A stretch of 64,000 nucleotides of DNA from Asanoa sp. WMMD1127. Its GTDB lineage: Bacteria > Actinomycetota > Actinomycetes > Mycobacteriales > Micromonosporaceae. The notes beneath the pieces are model-generated. The model saw only the letters and a program-made list of their open reading frames with translations. It was not told the origin of the DNA and did no database searches. The stretch covers positions 7,006,001-7,070,000 of the forward strand of contig NZ_JARUBP010000001.1 of assembly GCF_029626225.1 (NCBI RefSeq), written 5' to 3'. A program made the position numbers and the translations under genes. This document shows, in pieces, positions 2,164-9,544 of the stretch (within the stretch, counting starts at the first letter, position 1; every line of letters begins with the position of its first letter).

Positions 2164-2754
2164 GTGCCGCGCGTGAGCCAGAACCAGCTCGACGCCCGCC
2201 GCCACGAGATCCTGGCGGCGGCGCGGGCCGCGTTCGCCCGTTACGGCTACGAGGGTGCCACGGTTCGGCGGCTGGAAGAGGAAACCGGGCTGTCCCGGGG
2301 CGCCATCTTCCACCATTTCCGTGACAAGGACTCCCTGTTCCTCGCCGTCGCCGAGGACGACGCGGCCGCGATGGTCGCCACGGTGGCCCGCAACGGCCTG
2401 GTCCAGGTGATGCGCGACCTGCTCGCCCAGGCCGCGTCGCCCGACACCACCGGCTGGCTCGGCAGCCAGCTCGAGGTGTCCCGGCGGTTGCGCACCGACC
2501 CCGAGTTCGCCAAGCGCTGGGCGGTGCACTCCGCCGCGATCGCCGAGGCCACCCGCGACCGGCTGGCCCGGCAGCGGGCCGCCGGGGTGCTCCGCGACGA
2601 CGTCGACCTCGACGTGCTGGCCCAGTTCCTCGAGCTGGCCTACGACGGGCTCGTGCTGCACCTGGCGATGGGCCGCCCGGCCGGCGACCTCGGCCCCGTG
2701 CTCGACCTCGTCGAGGAGGCCGTCCGCCAGGCCAGCCGTCCGGTTCGCGACTGA
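2164..2754 (+). CDS. acnR: TetR-family regulator, AcnR-like (aconitase repressor family)
   Basis: This 196-residue protein has an N-terminal TetR helix-turn-helix containing YEGATVRRLEEETGLSRGAI and FHHFRDKDSLFLAVA. The body continues with DAAAMVATVARNGLVQVMR and LEVSRRLRTDPEFAKRW. These stretches match the corynebacterial AcnR pattern closely; AcnR represses aconitase and responds to citrate-type ligands. In relatives the gene usually follows acn, but here the upstream gene is a thioesterase and no aconitase gene is in the window. Start is GTG at 2164. The orthology is judged from memory of the AcnR sequence; the target gene here is inferred. Confidence 0.75.
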   Translation: MPRVSQNQLDARRHEILAAARAAFARYGYEGATVRRLEEETGLSRGAIFHHFRDKDSLFLAVAEDDAAAMVATVARNGLVQVMRDLLAQAASPDTTGWLGSQLEVSRRLRTDPEFAKRWAVHSAAIAEATRDRLARQRAAGVLRDDVDLDVLAQFLELAYDGLVLHLAMGRPAGDLGPVLDLVEEAVRQASRPVRD

Positions 2755-2777
2755 CCCGTCGCGCTCTGGCGCGCCGG

Positions 2778-2792
2778 CTCCACACTGGGCGC
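2778..2792 (+). promoter_or_regulatory. Promoter-like motif shared by two TIGR04222 genes (copy 1)
   Basis: CTCCACACTGGGCGC lies 26 bp before the first TIGR04222 start. Nearly the same 15-mer (CTCCACAATGGGCGC) lies 31 bp before the second TIGR04222 start. CACA(C/A)T could serve as a -10 element. Conservation between two paralogous upstream regions suggests function, or descent from the duplication that made the genes. Confidence 0.4.
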
Positions 2793-2818
2793 GTCCGCGC
2801 GCGAGACGGGAGCCCGCG

Positions 2819-3496
2819 ATGACGCACCTGCGCTACCTCGGTGCGGCGGTGGCCGCGATCGTGCTGACCAAGCTCGTGCGGGTGGTGGTGGGGCAGGGGC
2901 GGCTGACCCGCCCCGGGCCGTCGCATCCGCAGCAGGTGGGCTACCTGCGGGACGGCGTGTCGGCCGCGGTCTACGCGACGTTGGCCGGGCTGCGGCAGGC
3001 GGGCGCGATCGGCGCGGGGCCGGAGACCCGGCTGCACCGGACCGGGCCGCTGCCGGCGGGCGCGACCCCGCTCGACGCGGCCGTCCACCACGCCGCGGCG
3101 GGCGGCCCACGGGTGCGCAACGTCGGCGCCGCCCGGCTCTGGACCGATCGCAGCGACGGCTTGACCTTCCTGGTCGTGGCCAGCCTCGTCTGGATGACGT
3201 TCAGCCTGTTCCGCCCGTTGGGGCGCACCCGGGCGGGTGATCGTCTCCTCGACCGGCTGCGGCGGGAGCACGCCTACCTGGCACCGAGCCAGACGCCGAG
3301 CTACGCGACGTACGGGCCGGCGGGCGCGGCGCTGGCTGTGGCGCTGTTCGGGCTGGCGGCGCTGGTCCACCTGGATCCCGCGTTCGCCACCGAGGCAGAG
3401 CTTCAGGCGCTGGCCCGCAAGCCGGAGGACGGCGGCTCCTGCGGCGGGGGCGGCGGCGGTTGCGGTGGCGGTGACTGCGGCGGCTGCGGTGACTGA
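2819..3496 (+). CDS. TIGR04222-domain membrane protein with Cys/Gly-rich tail (paralogue 1, shortened)
   Basis: This 225-residue membrane protein has hydrophobic segments near residues 5-24, 115-131 and 168-184. A conserved TPSYATYGPAGAALAVALFG stretch precedes the last one. The tail from about residue 206 is almost pure glycine with four cysteines (SCGGGGGGCGGGDCGGCGD). Its two downstream paralogues are about 300 residues. This copy lacks about 45 residues between the first conserved half and the VGAARL segment, including one hydrophobic stretch. It is the first gene of an operon with a DUF692 iron enzyme, so the cysteine tail is a plausible modification substrate. The product is unknown. 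Confidence 0.8.
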   Translation: MTHLRYLGAAVAAIVLTKLVRVVVGQGRLTRPGPSHPQQVGYLRDGVSAAVYATLAGLRQAGAIGAGPETRLHRTGPLPAGATPLDAAVHHAAAGGPRVRNVGAARLWTDRSDGLTFLVVASLVWMTFSLFRPLGRTRAGDRLLDRLRREHAYLAPSQTPSYATYGPAGAALAVALFGLAALVHLDPAFATEAELQALARKPEDGGSCGGGGGGCGGGDCGGCGD

Positions 3497-3558
3497 CGGA
3501 TTTACCCCGCCGTTACCTACGGCGCGATCGAGTGACCTTCCACGCTGTGGCGGGGGCA

Positions 3559-3573
3559 CTCCACAATGGGCGC
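3559..3573 (+). promoter_or_regulatory. Promoter-like motif shared by two TIGR04222 genes (copy 2)
   Basis: CTCCACAATGGGCGC repeats the 15-mer at 2778-2792 with one change. It lies in the 108-bp gap between the first and second TIGR04222 genes, 31 bp before the ATG at 3605. It suggests that the second gene onward can be transcribed independently of the first. Confidence 0.4.
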
Positions 3574-3604
3574 AACGGGCCCTGCGACCTCGGGAGACGA
3601 CACG

Positions 3605-4513
3605 ATGGCAGACACCTGGGGCATCTCCGGCCCCACCTTCCTGGGGATCTACGTGGCGCTGGTGGTCGCCGCCATCGTCGTGACCGCGATCGTCCGCTCC
3701 ATGCTGTCCCGCGGGCCGGACTCCGGCTGGCCGAACCTCGCGCCGGAACAGGTGGCGTTCCTCAACGGCGGGCCGCTGCTGACCACGTACACCACGCTCG
3801 GTGGTCTGCGCCGGGCCGGCGCGATCGGCGCGAACCCCGACCGCACGCTGGTGCCGACCGGCCCGCTGCCGGCCGGTTCGACGCCGCTCGACACGGCCGT
3901 CTACAACGCCGCCGGCAAGCGGCTGCGGACCCGTCAGCTCTCCGGCGACCCCTGGGTGACCAGCGCGCTCGACGACATCCGCACCCGCCTCGAACGGGAC
4001 GGGCTGCTGCTCTCGCGCGGACAGCGGCGGCTGTCCCGGCTGGCGGCGCTCCTGCTGCTGCCGGTGGTCCTGCTGGGCGCGGCGCGGATCTCGGCCGGGC
4101 TCGCCAACGACCGCCCGGTCGGCTTCCTGACACTGCTGGTCATCGTCTCGGTGATCTGGATGCTGATCAGCCTGACCCGGGCGAAGTCGCGCACCAAGGC
4201 GGGCACGCGGGCCCTGGCCGGGCTGCGCACCCAGCACCGGTACCTGGCGCCGGGCGAGGCGCCGAGCTACGCCACCTACGGCGCCGGCACGACGGCGATG
4301 GGCGTCGCGCTGTTCGGCGCGTCGACGCTGTTCCTGCTCGACCCGGCGTTCGCCGAGGAGGCCGAGATCAACCGGCAGGTCGCCGGCGGCTCGGGCGGCG
4401 ACGGCGGCGCGAGCTACAGCGGCGACTCGGGCGGCAGCGGCAGCTCGTGCAGCGGCGGCAGCTCCTGCGGAGGCGGGGGTGGCTGCGGCGGCGGAGGCGG
4501 GTGCGGCGGATGA
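3605..4513 (+). CDS. TIGR04222-domain membrane protein with Cys/Gly-rich tail (paralogue 2)
   Basis: This protein has 302 residues from the ATG at 3605, which follows a GGGAGA ribosome-binding site; an in-frame ATG at 3566 has no such site. The N-terminal segment FLGIYVALVVAAIVVTAIV is hydrophobic, and two further hydrophobic stretches (LLLLPVVLLGA and FLTLLVIVSVIWMLISL) follow. The conserved block APSYATY-type GEAPSYATYGAGTTAMGVALFG sits before the last one. The C-terminal ~45 residues are Gly/Ser-rich with four cysteines, ending CGGGGGCGGGGGCGG. The stop overlaps the next start (ATGA), so translation is coupled. Family and context indicate a membrane-anchored substrate or scaffold for the DUF692 enzyme; this is inference. 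Confidence 0.82.
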   Translation: MADTWGISGPTFLGIYVALVVAAIVVTAIVRSMLSRGPDSGWPNLAPEQVAFLNGGPLLTTYTTLGGLRRAGAIGANPDRTLVPTGPLPAGSTPLDTAVYNAAGKRLRTRQLSGDPWVTSALDDIRTRLERDGLLLSRGQRRLSRLAALLLLPVVLLGAARISAGLANDRPVGFLTLLVIVSVIWMLISLTRAKSRTKAGTRALAGLRTQHRYLAPGEAPSYATYGAGTTAMGVALFGASTLFLLDPAFAEEAEINRQVAGGSGGDGGASYSGDSGGSGSSCSGGSSCGGGGGCGGGGGCGG

Positions 4514-5409
4514 CCCCGTTCGTCGCGCTCTACCTGGCGCTCGGGGCCGCCGCGATCGGCGCCACCGCGGTCGTCCGCTGGTGGATCGCCCGCGGCCCGG
4601 TCGGCGAGCCGCACCACGAACGGATCGGCCCGGAGGAAGCGGCCTACCTCAACGGCGGCCGGCGGCTGGCCACGTACGCCGCCGTCGGGAAGCTGCGCCG
4701 GTGCGGCGCGATCGGCACCCGACCGGACGGCGCCCTCGACCGGACCGGCCCGATGCCCATGGCCTCGACCGCGTTGGACAACGCGCTCTGGACCGCGGCC
4801 GGCCTGCACCGAAGGGTCAGCGACCTGGCCCGCGAGCGGTCGGTGGGCCGCGCGCTCGACGACGTGCGCAGCGGCTTGGAAAGCGCCGGACTGCTGCCTT
4901 CCACCCGGCGGCGCTGGCTGTCCCGGCTGGCCGCGATCCTGGTCCTTCCGGTGCTCGCGCTCGGTGCCGTGCACGTGCTGCGGGCGGCGGAGGCCGACCG
5001 GCCGTTCGCGTGGGTGGTCGCGATCAGTTTCGTGCTGGTCTACTGGCTGGTCTGGAGCCTCAACCGAACGCCGGGGTCCACCCTGGCCGCGCGGCGGACG
5101 CTGGAGGCGCTGCGGTCCCGGCACCATCACCTGGCCCCCGGCCAGGCGCCGAGCTACGCGACCTACGACGCCTCGGCCGCGGCAATGGGTGTCGCGCTGT
5201 TCGGCGCGCCCGCGCTGCGCCAGGTGGCCCCCGAGTTCGCCACCAAGCAGGAGGTCCGGCGGTCGTGGGCCGGGACGTGGCTGTCGACGGGGCCGACCGG
5301 GGCGGTCGGCTTCGGCAGCGCCAGCTGCGGCGGCTACGGCGCCGACTCCGGCGGCGGGAGTTCCGGTGGGGGCGGGGGCTGCGGCGGCGGAGGGGGTGGC
5401 GGGTCGTGA
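4510..5409 (+). CDS. TIGR04222-domain membrane protein with Cys/Gly-rich tail (paralogue 3)
   Basis: This 299-residue paralogue starts at an ATG overlapping the previous stop. It repeats the same plan: an N-terminal membrane helix (VALYLALGAAAIGATAVVRW), the block GPEEAAYLNGGRRLATYAAV, a middle pair of helices, then GQAPSYATYDASAAAMGVAL and a last hydrophobic segment. The tail carries only two cysteines (SASCGGYG and GGGCGGGGGGGS), fewer than its neighbours. Its stop overlaps the GTG of the DUF692 gene by four bases. The three copies are diverged at protein level, so the duplication is old or the copies have specialised. Confidence 0.82.
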   Translation: MTPFVALYLALGAAAIGATAVVRWWIARGPVGEPHHERIGPEEAAYLNGGRRLATYAAVGKLRRCGAIGTRPDGALDRTGPMPMASTALDNALWTAAGLHRRVSDLARERSVGRALDDVRSGLESAGLLPSTRRRWLSRLAAILVLPVLALGAVHVLRAAEADRPFAWVVAISFVLVYWLVWSLNRTPGSTLAARRTLEALRSRHHHLAPGQAPSYATYDASAAAMGVALFGAPALRQVAPEFATKQEVRRSWAGTWLSTGPTGAVGFGSASCGGYGADSGGGSSGGGGGCGGGGGGGS

Positions 5410-6221
5410 CCGACTACGGCGTGGGAATCGGCTGGCGGCCGGAGATCGCCGGATTCGTCGCCGAACTGCCCGGCCTGCGGTTCGTCGAGGTGGTCGCCGA
5501 GTCGGTGCACGACCATGCGCCGGTGCCGCCCGGGCTCGCGGACCTGCGGGCCAGGGGCGTCGCGGTGGTGCCGCACGGGGTCCGGCTGTCGCTCGGCGGG
5601 GCCGAGCCGGTCGAGCCCGCGCGGGTCACCCACCTCGCCACCGTCGCCGAGCGGCTCGACGCGCCGCTGGTCAGCGAGCACATCGCGTTCGTCCGCGCCG
5701 GCGGTGTCGAGGCCGGTCACCTGCTGCCCCTGCCCCGCAGCCGGGAGGCGGTCGACGCGGTCGTGGCCAACGTCGCGCGTACGCGGGCCGAACTGCCCGT
5801 CCCGATCGCCCTCGAGCCGATCGCGGCGATCTTCGACTGGCCCGACGACGAGCTGACCGAGGCGCAGTTCCTCACCGAGATCCTCGAGCGCACCGAGGCG
5901 CTGCTGCTGCTCGACATCGCCAACGTCTACGCGAACGCCCGCAACCGGGGCACCGACCCGCTGGAGCTGCTCGACGCGCTGCCGCTGGACCGGATCGCCT
6001 ACTGCCATGTCGCCGGCGGCGCCGAGGCCGGCGGGATCTACCACGACACGCACACCGACGCCGTGCCCGAGCCGGTGCTGGCGCTGGTGGCGGAGCTGTG
6101 CGCCCGTCGCCGGCCGCCGGCGCTGCTGCTCGAGCGCGACGGCGCGTACCCGGCCGCCGACGCCCTGCGGGCCGAGCTCGACGCGATCGCCAAGGCCTCC
6201 GGCTACCCGGCGGTCACGTGA
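5406..6221 (+). CDS. DUF692-family multinuclear non-haem iron oxidative enzyme (MNIO)
   Basis: This 271-residue TIM-barrel-type protein shows the metal-ligand pattern of the DUF692 family: His57 (VVPHGVR), Glu91-His92 (VSEHIAF), Glu137 (ALEPIAA), Asp170 and Asn173 (LLLDIANVYANARN), His201 (YCHVAGG), His216 and Asp218 (HDTHTDA), and Glu243 (LLERDG). Characterised relatives (MbnB, TglH) use an iron cluster and O2 to remodel cysteines in peptides. Length is normal and no ligand looks missing. Start is GTG in a 4-base overlap with the third Cys-rich gene, and the stop overlaps the next start. The substrates are most likely the cysteine tails encoded upstream; the chemistry cannot be predicted. 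Confidence 0.9.
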   Translation: MTDYGVGIGWRPEIAGFVAELPGLRFVEVVAESVHDHAPVPPGLADLRARGVAVVPHGVRLSLGGAEPVEPARVTHLATVAERLDAPLVSEHIAFVRAGGVEAGHLLPLPRSREAVDAVVANVARTRAELPVPIALEPIAAIFDWPDDELTEAQFLTEILERTEALLLLDIANVYANARNRGTDPLELLDALPLDRIAYCHVAGGAEAGGIYHDTHTDAVPEPVLALVAELCARRRPPALLLERDGAYPAADALRAELDAIAKASGYPAVT

Positions 6222-6631
6222 CCGGCGACCTCGCGGCCCGCCAGGCGGCGCTGGTCGCCACGCTCACCTCCGGCGCGCCCGTACCGCCCGGTTTCGATCC
6301 GCGGCTCGTCGGCGCGGCCCGGGCGGCGCTGCTGCGCAAGCGGGCCGGCGAGGTCGCCAAGGCGTGGCCGATGCTGGCCGCGGCGCACGGCGAGCGGTGG
6401 CGGACCGTGTTCGCGGAGTGGGCGGCCGAACGGCCGACCAACGGCTCGCTGCGGGACGGATGGGACCTGGCGCGGTCGCTCGCCCCGCTGACCGGCGGGG
6501 CCGCCGCGGAGCTGGCGGCGCGGGAGGCGGCCTGGCGCTACGACGGCGCGGGCGCCCCGGTGCCGCGCGGCCGGCTGGCCGGCTTCTGGAAGAGTGGGCG
6601 GCTGTGGACGCGCTTTCGGTCGACGGGCTGA
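6218..6631 (+). CDS. Probable MNIO partner protein (SCO6045/DUF2063-like)
   Basis: This 137-residue protein is read from a GTG overlapping the DUF692 stop. The pattern AALLRKRAGEVAKAWPMLAA, then WRTVFAEWAAERPTNGSLRD, then ELAAREAAWRYDG recalls the helical DUF2063 N-domain and the domain named after Streptomyces SCO6045. In known MNIO systems such a protein (MbnC, TglI, BufC) binds the precursor and presents it to the enzyme. The gene overlaps the ABC ATPase by 28 bases. Similarity is by eye and weak in detail, so the assignment rests partly on position next to DUF692. Confidence 0.65.
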   Translation: MTGDLAARQAALVATLTSGAPVPPGFDPRLVGAARAALLRKRAGEVAKAWPMLAAAHGERWRTVFAEWAAERPTNGSLRDGWDLARSLAPLTGGAAAELAAREAAWRYDGAGAPVPRGRLAGFWKSGRLWTRFRSTG

Positions 6632-7221
6632 CCCGCCGGTTCGGCAATCTCGTCGTCCTCGACGGGGTCAGCTTCACCGTCGAGCCGGGCCAGGTGGGCG
6701 CCGTGCTGGGCGCCAACGGCTCGGGCAAGACGACGCTGCTGCGCTGCGTCATCGGCGCCGACCGGCCCGACGCGGGCGTGGTCACCATCGGCGGGCGGCG
6801 GGTCTACGAGACCGACGCCTGGGCCCGCGCGATCATGGCGGCGGCGCTCGACGACATCGACTTCTTCCCCGACCTGTCGGTGGCCGAGCACCTGACCCTG
6901 CTGGCCTACGCCCACGGTGACGGCGGCGACCCGGTCGACGGCGTGCTCGACGAGCTGGGCCTGACGCCGGCTCGTGACCAGCTGCCGATCACCCTCTCCA
7001 GCGGGCAGCGGCGCCGCCTCGCGCTGGCCTCGTGCCTGGTCCGGCCGCGCCGCGTGCTGATCCTCGACGAGCCCGAGCAGCGGCTCGACGTCGACGGCCG
7101 GGCGTGGCTGACCGACCGGCTCCTGCGGGAGAAGGCGGCCGGCACCGCGGTGCTGATGGCCTCGCACGACGCCGAGCTGGTGGACGCCGTCGCCGACGTG
7201 CGGATCGGCATCGGCGGGTGA
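6604..7221 (+). CDS. ABC transporter ATP-binding protein
   Basis: This 205-residue single nucleotide-binding domain has a Walker A motif (GANGSGKTT), a degenerate signature LSSGQRRRLALAS, Walker B LILDEPE and an H-loop MASHDAE. It starts at a GTG inside the end of the partner gene, and its stop overlaps the following permease start by four bases, so it is translationally coupled to both. It should energise the downstream membrane protein. A role in moving or maturing the modified Cys-rich product across the membrane is inferred from operon position only. Confidence 0.88.
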   Translation: MDALSVDGLTRRFGNLVVLDGVSFTVEPGQVGAVLGANGSGKTTLLRCVIGADRPDAGVVTIGGRRVYETDAWARAIMAAALDDIDFFPDLSVAEHLTLLAYAHGDGGDPVDGVLDELGLTPARDQLPITLSSGQRRRLALASCLVRPRRVLILDEPEQRLDVDGRAWLTDRLLREKAAGTAVLMASHDAELVDAVADVRIGIGG

Positions 7222-8609
7222 CGGCGACCGCCCTGGTCCCGCCGCCGGGCGCGGCGCCGCCACCGGCCGGCGAGCTGAAGGCCCGCCTGCGCCGCGCCCG
7301 CCGCCGGCACCGCGACCACTCGATCGGCGACCTGCTGACCGACCTCTACATGATCGCGTTCCTGATCGCGATCTACGGCTGGGCCGGCGTCGACGCGGTC
7401 AGCGGCTTCCTCCACCGGCAGGTGGCGGCGGCGCCGGCGGACCCGGGCGCGCGCTACTGGATCGGGATCGGCGCCTCGGTGGCGTTGGCCGGGTTCGTCT
7501 GGCAGGGCCTGACCGCGGTCGGGCCGCTCCAGGTGGGTCCGGCGGTGCAGAGCTGGGTGGCGAGCACGCCGCTGTCGCGCCGGGCGCTGCTGGCGCCGCG
7601 GTTCGCGGGGCTGGCCCTGGCGGCGGCCGGCGGCGCGGCGGTCCTGGGCGCGACGGCGGCGGCGATCGGGCGCTCCGGCGACTACGTGTGGGCGGCGGTG
7701 GCCGGGCTCGCCTGGGGTGTGGTGTTCGCCGCCGGGGCCGTGACCGCGCAGGCCGGTCGTCGCCTGCGCTGGCCGGCGCTCGTGCTCGCCGGCGCCGGCG
7801 GGCTGATCGTGCTGGTGGTGGTGCTGCCTCTCGTCGACGTCGCGGCGCCGGGTTTCGCCGTGCTGCCCGCGGTCGCGGTGGCCGGCGTCCTTCCGGCGGT
7901 GGCGCTGCTGGTGCTCGCGGTGCGGGCGCTGCCCCGGATCGACCGGGCCTCGCTGTCGACCGGCGCGCGGTTCGCCTCGGCCGCGTCGTCCGCGGTGCTG
8001 CTGCTCGACCCGTCGATGCTGGCCGCGGTGGTCGAGAACGAGCGCTGGCGCGCCGTCGGCCGGGTCCGCAGCGGCCGGTTCGCGCGCGGCCCGCGCTGGT
8101 GGGTGCTGCTCCAGGCCGACGTCCGCCGGATCGGCCGCAACCGCGCCGCGATCGGCTGGTGGGCGGTGCTCATCCTCGCCGTGTACGCCGTCCAGGTCGC
8201 CCTCCCCGCCGTGGCCGCCTCGGTCCAGGTGATCGCCGCGTACCTGGCGGCCGACCGGTTCGCCGGCGGCCTGCGCGGCATCTCCCGCTCGGCCGGCCTG
8301 CGCCGCGCGCTCGGTGGCAGCGACGCCGGCCTCAAGCTCACGCACCTGCTCGTACCCACCGTCGTCGCGGCCCTGTGGTGGCTCGCGACCCTGCCGGCGG
8401 TCGGCGCGGGACCGCTGTGGCTGCCCCCGCTCCTGGTCGCCGGCGTGGCCGCGACGGTCTACCGCTCGGCGACCCGCGGCCCGATGGTCTACGGCGGCGC
8501 GGTCGCCGAAACCCCGATGGGCGCGGTCCCCGTCGGCCTGATCCGCCAGGTCGTCCGCGGCCCGGACCTGCTCTTCGTGATCGTGGCGATCCAACTGCTG
8601 GTGAGGTGA
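7218..8609 (+). CDS. Multispanning ABC permease-like membrane protein (DUF6297-like)
   Basis: This 463-residue protein begins with a basic cytosolic segment (ELKARLRRARRRHRDHS) followed by about ten hydrophobic stretches, for example LYMIAFLIAIYGWAG, ALVLAGAGGLIVLVVVLPLV and AAIGWWAVLILAVYAVQVAL. There is no ATPase motif, so it pairs with the ATPase encoded just before. It resembles the actinobacterial DUF6297 membrane proteins that accompany such ATPases. GTG start overlaps the ATPase stop by four bases. The transported substrate is unknown. Confidence 0.75.
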   Translation: MTATALVPPPGAAPPPAGELKARLRRARRRHRDHSIGDLLTDLYMIAFLIAIYGWAGVDAVSGFLHRQVAAAPADPGARYWIGIGASVALAGFVWQGLTAVGPLQVGPAVQSWVASTPLSRRALLAPRFAGLALAAAGGAAVLGATAAAIGRSGDYVWAAVAGLAWGVVFAAGAVTAQAGRRLRWPALVLAGAGGLIVLVVVLPLVDVAAPGFAVLPAVAVAGVLPAVALLVLAVRALPRIDRASLSTGARFASAASSAVLLLDPSMLAAVVENERWRAVGRVRSGRFARGPRWWVLLQADVRRIGRNRAAIGWWAVLILAVYAVQVALPAVAASVQVIAAYLAADRFAGGLRGISRSAGLRRALGGSDAGLKLTHLLVPTVVAALWWLATLPAVGAGPLWLPPLLVAGVAATVYRSATRGPMVYGGAVAETPMGAVPVGLIRQVVRGPDLLFVIVAIQLLVR

Positions 8610-8611
8610 CG

Positions 8612-8902
8612 ATGAACCCCGATGAGGTACGCACGGCGGTCGACGAGTTCGCGACGCGGATCGACGCGCTCGGGCCGCCGTCCGGCGCCCCGGTCGCGGT
8701 CGAGGTGGAGCTGAGCCCGGCAGCGGCGAAGGCGCTGGTCGAAGCGCTGCGCTCATGGCACGACCCGCGCGACCAAGGCTCCTGCGCCCAGTGCGGTACG
8801 GGCCGCCTCGACGAGACCTTCACCTGCGTCAGCTGCGGCCAACCGGCGGGCCTCTTCGGCCAACTCGTCCGCGAACGCCTCGCCCGCCACCGCACCGACT
8901 AG
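8612..8902 (+). CDS. Small zinc-ribbon-like protein of the MNIO operon
   Basis: This 96-residue protein starts at an ATG preceded by GAGGTGA, 2 bp after the permease stop. The N-terminal half is acidic and helical. The C-terminal half holds two cysteine pairs (CAQC and CVSC) spaced 15 residues apart, a zinc-ribbon arrangement. It is the last gene of the operon. No family name is recognised. A metal-binding or regulatory accessory role for the operon is possible but unproven. Confidence 0.7.
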   Translation: MNPDEVRTAVDEFATRIDALGPPSGAPVAVEVELSPAAAKALVEALRSWHDPRDQGSCAQCGTGRLDETFTCVSCGQPAGLFGQLVRERLARHRTD

Positions 8903-8909
8903 CGGCCGG

Positions 8910-9317
8910 CTAGCGCCGCGGATCGGTTGGCAGCAGATCGGCGATGTCGTGGTGCAACTTGGCGAGGCCCTGATCGAAGGTCGCGAGGCGACCGCGCCGC
9001 GAACGTGCCTGATAGGCGAGGTAGGCGTCGGTGACCTGGCGATGCCCGATGACACCGCGCATGGGAACCGCTTCGAACGGGATGTCGTCAGGCCAGAACT
9101 CATGACGAGGATGAGCGGTCAGGGACGAGAGCAATCCCGTCGCCGTTACCGCTGTCGCACCGTGTCTCAGCACGAGGCGGATCAAGCCGCCCTGCGTGAT
9201 CGGGCACGTGGCGAAGCCTTCGTCGTTGGCCGCGAACCAGGCTTCCGCCGAGTCGTGGTGCACGTGGTCGGCGGTCAGGAGTGCGATGAGGACGTTGGTG
9301 TCGAGCAGCACCGTCAC
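8910..9317 (-). CDS. PIN-domain ribonuclease toxin, VapC family
   Basis: This 135-residue PIN domain opens with VLLDTNVLIALL (catalytic Asp6). Later acidic residues are Asp97 (VTDAYLAYQA) and Asp115 (LATFDQGLA). The position usually held by a catalytic Glu reads Gln42 in CPITQGGLIRL, a form I recall in other actinobacterial PIN proteins, so it is not evidence of inactivation. It overlaps the antitoxin stop by four bases, the classic coupled arrangement. The product is expected to cleave RNA when freed from its antitoxin. It is convergent with the MNIO operon, ending 8 bp after it. Confidence 0.88.
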   Translation of the reverse strand: MTVLLDTNVLIALLTADHVHHDSAEAWFAANDEGFATCPITQGGLIRLVLRHGATAVTATGLLSSLTAHPRHEFWPDDIPFEAVPMRGVIGHRQVTDAYLAYQARSRRGRLATFDQGLAKLHHDIADLLPTDPRR

Positions 9318-9544
9318 GTGTCCGGGTCCTCCATCGATCGCACGTTCTCACTGGTGATGGGGAAGCCGAGCCGGATAACCGGAAGGCCGGTCACCGGGCT
9401 GCGTGAGACTTCTTGAGCCTCGCCTTGACCCAACCCCCGACGCATCAGGTCGGCGACCGTCTCGCTGAGACTGCGCCGGGTGTCCCGCGCGATGGAGAGC
9501 GCGAGCTGATGTAGGTCATCGGGCAGGTCAATGGTGGTGCGCAT
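9314..9544 (-). CDS. Ribbon-helix-helix antitoxin, VapB-like
   Basis: This 76-residue protein starts MRTTIDLPDDLHQLALSIA, a ribbon-helix-helix DNA-binding N-terminus, followed by SLSETVADLMRRGLG. The C-terminal tail is the likely toxin-binding part. I chose the ATG at 9544 because it gives the canonical RHH start. An extension to 9577 would begin inside the palindromic operator. It is encoded directly upstream of and overlapping the PIN toxin, which it should neutralise and co-repress. Confidence 0.85.
   Translation of the reverse strand: MRTTIDLPDDLHQLALSIARDTRRSLSETVADLMRRGLGQGEAQEVSRSPVTGLPVIRLGFPITSENVRSMEDPDT

Follow-up and report, generated by a model that had tools for sequence, protein, structure and literature searches.

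What does the MNIO (DUF692) enzyme encoded at positions 5406 to 6221 of a 64,000-nucleotide stretch of the Asanoa sp. WMMD1127 genome (a soil bacterium with a genome of 7.97 Mb; contig NZ_JARUBP010000001.1, positions 7,006,001 to 7,070,000; hereafter, the window) act upon, and how much of the surrounding gene cluster belongs to the same system? Small peptides are the substrates of most characterised MNIO enzymes; the enzyme of the window follows three genes for TIGR04222 membrane proteins with Gly/Cys-rich C-terminal tails. The core of the system would consist of one or more TIGR04222 proteins, the MNIO, and a partner protein. A cytosolic MNIO-partner complex would oxidise Cys residues in the [G/S]-C-[G/S] context within the disordered C-terminal tail of a larger carrier protein; each modified Cys would most likely become a 5-thiooxazole-type heterocycle, such as those formed by the related BufB and HvfB enzymes, and the product, a protein in which several modified residues lie close together, could bind soft metal ions, e.g., copper. 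This combined mechanism is moderately favoured. Judging from the sequences, the Gly/Cys tail is highly probable as the MNIO substrate, whereas thiooxazole-type chemistry, suggested by the relatedness of the enzymes, has about an even chance, and metal binding, proposed because of the analogy with bufferins and oxazolin, is a tentative suggestion that is somewhat likelier to be wrong than right.

The pairing of TIGR04222 proteins with MNIOs and partners is already in print and is not an uncharted branch; an earlier note on this DNA named no characterised product for it. According to the available portion of the paper by Antoine et al. (2025; PMC12452194), TIGR04222 membrane proteins carry C-terminal Ser/Gly regions with interspersed Cys residues that are putative MNIO substrates, and their genes cluster with those for MNIOs and PME-type 2 partners (exemplified by a 158-aa protein of Micromonospora matsumotoense); the product and its role are given there as unknown, many of the clusters appear partner-less, and the tails are called periplasmic. 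The window is a member of this described class, with the same three core families in the same order, to which it adds three tandem putative substrates and genes for an ABC ATPase, a DUF6297 permease, and a CxxC protein. No biochemistry of this class was found in the literature searched (mostly titles and the beginnings of abstracts).

All eight genes, spanning positions 2819 to 8902, lie on the forward strand, and the open reading frames (ORFs) and the sequence bear out the run described in the earlier note, including its overlaps and gaps. TIGR04222 genes A (2819 to 3496; 225 aa), B (3605 to 4513; 302 aa), and C (4510 to 5409; 299 aa) match the family profile with E-values of 1.6e-24, 4.7e-47, and 2.5e-34 and scores of 86.8, 160.5, and 118.9 bits, respectively, all over the cut-off of 43. 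The tail of protein A contains 4 Cys residues, that of protein B ends in CGGGGGCGGGGGCGG, and that of protein C is sparser, with 2 Cys residues in a Gly/Ser context. Gene A is a shortened copy: its BLASTP alignment with gene B contains a 45-residue gap, and its profile match is interrupted between HMM positions 113 and 163. Genes A and B are separated by 108 bp, and 4-bp overlaps join B to C, C to the MNIO gene, and the latter to the partner gene. Among 41 aligned TIGR04222 proteins, transmembrane (TM) segments 1 to 3 were detected at a Kyte-Doolittle (KD) value of at least 1.6 in 41, 38, and 41 sequences, respectively; a fourth hydrophobic segment is weak (10 of 41 at the same threshold) and broken in the AlphaFold2 model of protein B. 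This model has a mean pLDDT of 86.7, with residues 263 to 302 below 50, and none of the 41 PDB matches listed for its fold reached E ≤ 0.001; residues 47 to 85 look like a winged helix on a reading of the predicted secondary structure.

A survey of gene neighbourhoods, as proposed in the earlier note, covered 393 genomes of the class. TIGR04222 matches were found in 146 of these genomes (over the cut-off in 114) and MNIOs in 98. The best 150 TIGR04222 matches were taken, leaving out weaker ones, with which 30 of the 146 genomes dropped out, and one split match was discarded; the resulting 149 genes from 116 genomes are the listed matches to which the following TIGR04222 counts refer. The pairing proved to be non-random: 72 of 113 MNIO places (one MNIO fragment of genome G177 left aside) have a listed TIGR04222 gene no more than 5 kb away, on the same strand in all 72 cases. 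In the Cys contexts listed for 71 tails from this sample, 291 of 308 Cys residues are flanked on both sides by Gly or Ser, the spacing between Cys residues is mostly 3 to 10 (mode 6), and 34 of the 41 aligned proteins end in CGG.

Such tails track the presence of MNIOs, which supports the claim of the earlier note that they are MNIO substrates. Among the 70 genes with Cys-containing tails, 61 are located within 8 kb of an MNIO gene and 8 elsewhere in MNIO-bearing genomes; the last one (in G067, a genome with no listed MNIO) adjoins the start of an MNIO gene truncated at the contig end. The 21 genes with Gly/Ser tails lacking Cys include a single MNIO-adjacent one, 8 elsewhere in MNIO-bearing genomes, and 12 in genomes without MNIO; the single adjacent case is gene C of the window, misfiled by the metric despite its two tail Cys residues, so that the corrected count is 0 of 20. 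For the 58 genes that lack a low-complexity tail, the respective numbers are 25, 11, and 22. Counted per genome (116 in total), 63 have both tail and MNIO, 1 has the tail only, 20 have an MNIO without the tail, and 32 have neither; with the contig-end fragment taken into account, the listed Cys-tailed TIGR04222 proteins are restricted to MNIO-bearing genomes (64 of 64). Fisher tests gave p-values of 2.8e-12 for adjacency and 8.2e-14 for genomes, but these are overstated because related genomes were counted as independent, which makes the tree-based test discussed below the fair one.

The same kind of tail was also found on other proteins. In 43 MNIO loci no TIGR04222 gene was called; HMM search does find one in 3 of them. 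An ORF on the MNIO strand that carries such a tail is present in 13 of the 43, or in 10 after removal of these 3. Two of these carriers, proteins of 452 to 462 aa encoded beside MNIO genes in G245 and G293, have no hydrophobic segment at KD 1.5; seven others are mini-proteins of 83 to 119 aa, encoded downstream of the MNIO, with one hydrophobic segment each, and an eighth, less certain small carrier (L145), whose start is unclear, also has one such segment. Five of the ten carriers were run against Pfam, with no match; some of the ten may belong among the small proteins named 'adjamnio' by Antoine et al. (2025). The seven mini-proteins with clear starts have 0 to 1 Lys/Arg residues before the hydrophobic segment and 4 to 7 after it, an arrangement that by the positive-inside rule places the tail on the cytosolic side. 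Where weak homologues of the TM-less carrier are encoded away from MNIOs, the Cys tail is absent in all three cases with the C-terminus within the fetched stretch (L294, L297, and L299; those in L296 and L300 run off it and are outside this count); a homologue adjoining the fused MNIO of G095 ends in a single SCG, and the tail is sparser in the second copy from G245. Since the tail recurs beside MNIOs on two other carriers, it is the tail, not the TIGR04222 domain, that looks like the substrate. We therefore suggest, as an idea without precedent in the literature searched, that the Gly/Cys tail could be a portable, carrier-independent MNIO tag, modified in the cytosol with the help of a partner that lacks a recognition element and is often fused to the enzyme, and that the finished tail may stay on the cytosolic side; this proposal is closely balanced and falls slightly short of an even chance. 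The membrane-tethered product envisaged in the earlier note does not hold as a rule, since MNIO genes also adjoin a gene for a TM-less protein with this type of tail.

The MNIO itself (271 aa; forward strand), a putative iron oxygenase, matches PF05114 with an E-value of 6.5e-79 and a score of 265.3 bits against a gathering score of 25. Residues H57, H92, E137, D170, N173, H201, H213, D214, H216, and E243, which we take to be the metal ligands, are identical in all 20 aligned MNIOs (that of the window and 19 others), in agreement with the full set of ligands ascribed to this enzyme from the outset; nine ligand-type positions checked across the class sample are kept in 96 to 98 of 98 MNIO domains. 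The scores against the NCBIfam models decrease in the order BufB (179.7 bits), HvfB (152.6), ApyH (108.3), ChrH (60.1), and MbnB (26.2).

The gene that follows (6218 to 6631, forward strand) encodes a 137-aa protein, for which AlphaFold predicts a confident bundle of five helices (pLDDT 90.4) with no discernible RiPP (ribosomally synthesized and post-translationally modified peptide) recognition element. It has no family match and no DUF2063 signature, and is 62% identical over 126 columns to its counterpart in the M. matsumotoense locus (L230; 158 aa). Of the 76 loci with both MNIO and TIGR04222 genes, 37 encode the partner as a fusion to the MNIO C-terminus, 33 in the next gene, and 1 in the second gene; of the remaining 5 loci, 4 contain it in downstream frames (shortened in two) and the fifth is cut by the contig end. 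The partner is present, then, in all 75 assessable loci, about half of them with a fusion, as against the many published clusters that appear to lack it in the available part of that report, and the earlier assignment of the short helical gene as the MNIO partner is supported. In the named set, made up of the nearest relatives of the query, it follows the MNIO in 80 of 80 cases. Its position directly after the MNIO, its predicted helical fold, and the lack of a DUF2063 signature point to a PME-type 2-like partner. Profile comparison gave no significant relation to DUF2063 proteins: hhalign with three DUF2063 partners yielded a probability of 0.5%, equal to that of the negative control, and a DUF2063 match was obtained for 1 of 34 aligned partners (E = 0.018). 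Such a partner would be expected to resemble NGO1945, TglI, and MbnC in fold; the top Foldseek match is MbnC, at a weak E-value of 1.5.

Several observations weigh against the proposed mechanism. After correction for the tree, the link between tail and MNIO points the same way but falls short of significance (p ~0.25); this underpowered test, which covered 145 of the 149 genes with gene C counted as tailed and the G067 gene as adjacent, had 6 supported independent pairs, of which on average 3.3 agree and 0.2 disagree. No Cys-tailed TIGR04222 gene is found in 18 of 74 MNIO-TIGR04222 loci, 17 of them in one genus (f19/g26), nor do any of these 18 contain another ORF with a Gly/Cys tail on the MNIO strand. 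A tailless TIGR04222 gene adjoins the MNIO in L256 and in the congener locus L200, the latter of which additionally carries a tailed one, and L282 and L283 consist of MNIO and partner with no TIGR04222 gene upstream. The tail could instead be a structural or adhesive low-complexity segment merely co-inherited with an MNIO that modifies something else, e.g., Cys residues within TM segment 1 of the Streptomyces-type proteins; the tailless loci and the outcome of the tree-based test are what such a scenario would lead one to expect, but it appears quite improbable in view of the corrected absence of Cys-less Gly/Ser tails beside MNIOs and the recurrence of the tail on two unrelated carriers. A hint from the Streptomyces group, a single tail Cys on another paralogue in 5 of 6 genomes with tailless loci versus 1 of 4 with tailed ones (by eye), was set aside as too few cases to use. 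Further, the enzyme misses both equivalog cut-offs (310 bits for BufB and 360 bits for HvfB) by so much that its chemistry may differ from that of either, and no metal-handling gene was recognised by eye in the list of 28 neighbour families that recur, which leaves the metal-binding role put forward in the earlier note with no discernible support from the neighbourhood. These two points, along with the strongly kept CGG extremity, favour modification of the tail by some other MNIO chemistry (oxazolone-thioamide formation, TglH-like C-beta excision, or cross-linking) and a function that does not involve metals, for example in attachment to the envelope or in redox sensing; the nearest of the matching characterised MNIO models are nevertheless those of the BufB and HvfB maturases, and we regard this alternative as rather doubtful.

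The second part of the opening question concerns the last three genes, all on the forward strand, for the ABC ATPase (6604 to 7221), the DUF6297 permease (7218 to 8609; 463 aa, profile match 5.7e-59), and a 96-aa protein (8612 to 8902) with no family match at the cut-off. The last of these was described as a zinc-ribbon protein; it does have two CxxC pairs, whereas zinc-ribbon matches were found only at E 0.15 to 0.35, below the cut-off, and its homologues, among the loci fetched, occur in five congeners' loci only. The ABC gene overlaps the partner gene by 28 bp and the permease gene by 4 bp; the permease and CxxC genes are 2 bp apart, or would overlap by 4 bp if the latter started at an alternative GTG at 8606. 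The module is found on the MNIO contig in all 6 genomes of the genus Asanoa (within 1.5 kb in 5), and the 28-bp overlap is kept in L192, L194, and L195, as might be expected if the eight genes formed one functional unit, with the transporter moving or clearing the modified product; ABC-DUF6297 pairs near small RiPP-precursor-like peptides with Cys-rich ends (L205 in G252 and L206 in G194, by eye) would fit as well. However, DUF6297 is encoded in 54 of the 393 class genomes and lies within 5 kb of an MNIO only in that of the window (compared by eye; none of the other 53), the next-nearest pair being 7.7 kb apart and on opposite strands (G111), and in the Micromonospora-type loci L018 and L037 the same flanks enclose TIGR04222, MNIO, and partner genes without the module (by eye). 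A single conserved eight-gene system is rejected for the class sample outside the genus, and the eight-gene operon of the earlier note is a genus-level arrangement in which the ABC-DUF6297-CxxC genes are an added module outside the core; their participation in a common function is unlikely. The name DUF6297 was not found in the literature searched. In A. iriomotensis (L195-L196), the ABC gene is interrupted by ~11 kb of other DNA.

Compared with known systems, the window shares with bufferins (BufB/BufC) an MNIO with a partner and several Cys residues in a repeating context. Sec signal peptides are present on bufferin precursors, and bufferin partners have DUF2063 and recognition-element domains (PMC12452194, available portion); none of the eight products of the window matches DUF2282 or DUF2063 in Pfam, the two families on which this comparison rests, as the libraries used came without a Buf_6/12Cys profile. 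HvfB makes copper-binding 5-thiooxazoles and requires its partner, according to the available part of PMC13419390. Oxazolin (HvfA/HvfB/HvfC) has similarly repeated Cys residues next to Gly, and the artificial HvfB-HvfC fusion of that study has natural counterparts in the fused MNIO-partner proteins found here; the oxazolin precursor is small and secreted, whereas the tail in the present system belongs to a larger protein, membrane-bound or soluble. In the methanobactin system (MbnB/MbnC), MbnC is the top Foldseek match of the partner model, too weak to prove kinship (E 1.5, probability 0.38, TM-score 0.40), while the MNIO of the window scores only 26.2 bits against the MbnB model and its putative substrate is not a small leader-core peptide. 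The Gly/Ser/Cys-rich core of the microcin B17 precursor offers a resemblance only, with a chance-level PDB match (E 1.4). Microcin B17 azoles are made by a different enzyme set.

The motif TCCACANTGR is found upstream of genes A and B (CTCCACAMTGGGCGC, forward strand, at 2778 to 2792 and 3559 to 3573) and also, against an expectation of 0.28, upstream of 17 of the 76 named relatives, at positions -97 to -128 from the domain start; L212 has a second copy at -169. Two matches within the window alone are at chance level, so the support comes from the relatives; the motif is probably a promoter or an operator. An Rfam scan of the window revealed no riboswitch or other family at the gathering score, no sigma-70-type promoter or terminator was found in positions 2400 to 9400, and no tRNA in the window. 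A fourth TIGR04222 gene of this genome (G000:C1:5805212-5805823) is distant from the MNIO and has a tail without Cys, and the A. iriomotensis locus L195 contains, at the place corresponding to gene A, a 45-aa ORF resembling its tail end (by eye). Other types of MNIO loci were also seen. In three genomes of the genus (L193, L197, and L199), a second MNIO cluster comprises a gene for a 65- to 70-aa peptide with a TCNC.GSC motif, the MNIO gene, a gene for a protein of 276 to 290 aa, and those for a large protein resembling glycosyltransferases and for a LanB-like one of 1000 aa (by eye). The MNIO loci L157, L161, and L168 have true DUF2063 partners (Pfam), preceded by proteins of 184 to 223 aa with 8 to 10 Cys residues and HVCMG/HVCHGD motifs and followed by a ferritin-like protein of 414 to 442 aa (by eye).

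The regular presence of the partner would amend the published statement that many TIGR04222 clusters appear to lack one. Biochemical work should become easier with the natural MNIO-partner fusions, in which enzyme and partner form a single chain, just as it did with the artificial HvfBC fusion. If the portable-tail proposal is true, it would also amend the published statement that the tails are likely periplasmic; MNIOs would then modify not only peptides but also proteins, via a transplantable tag that would provide a ready genetic handle for testing.

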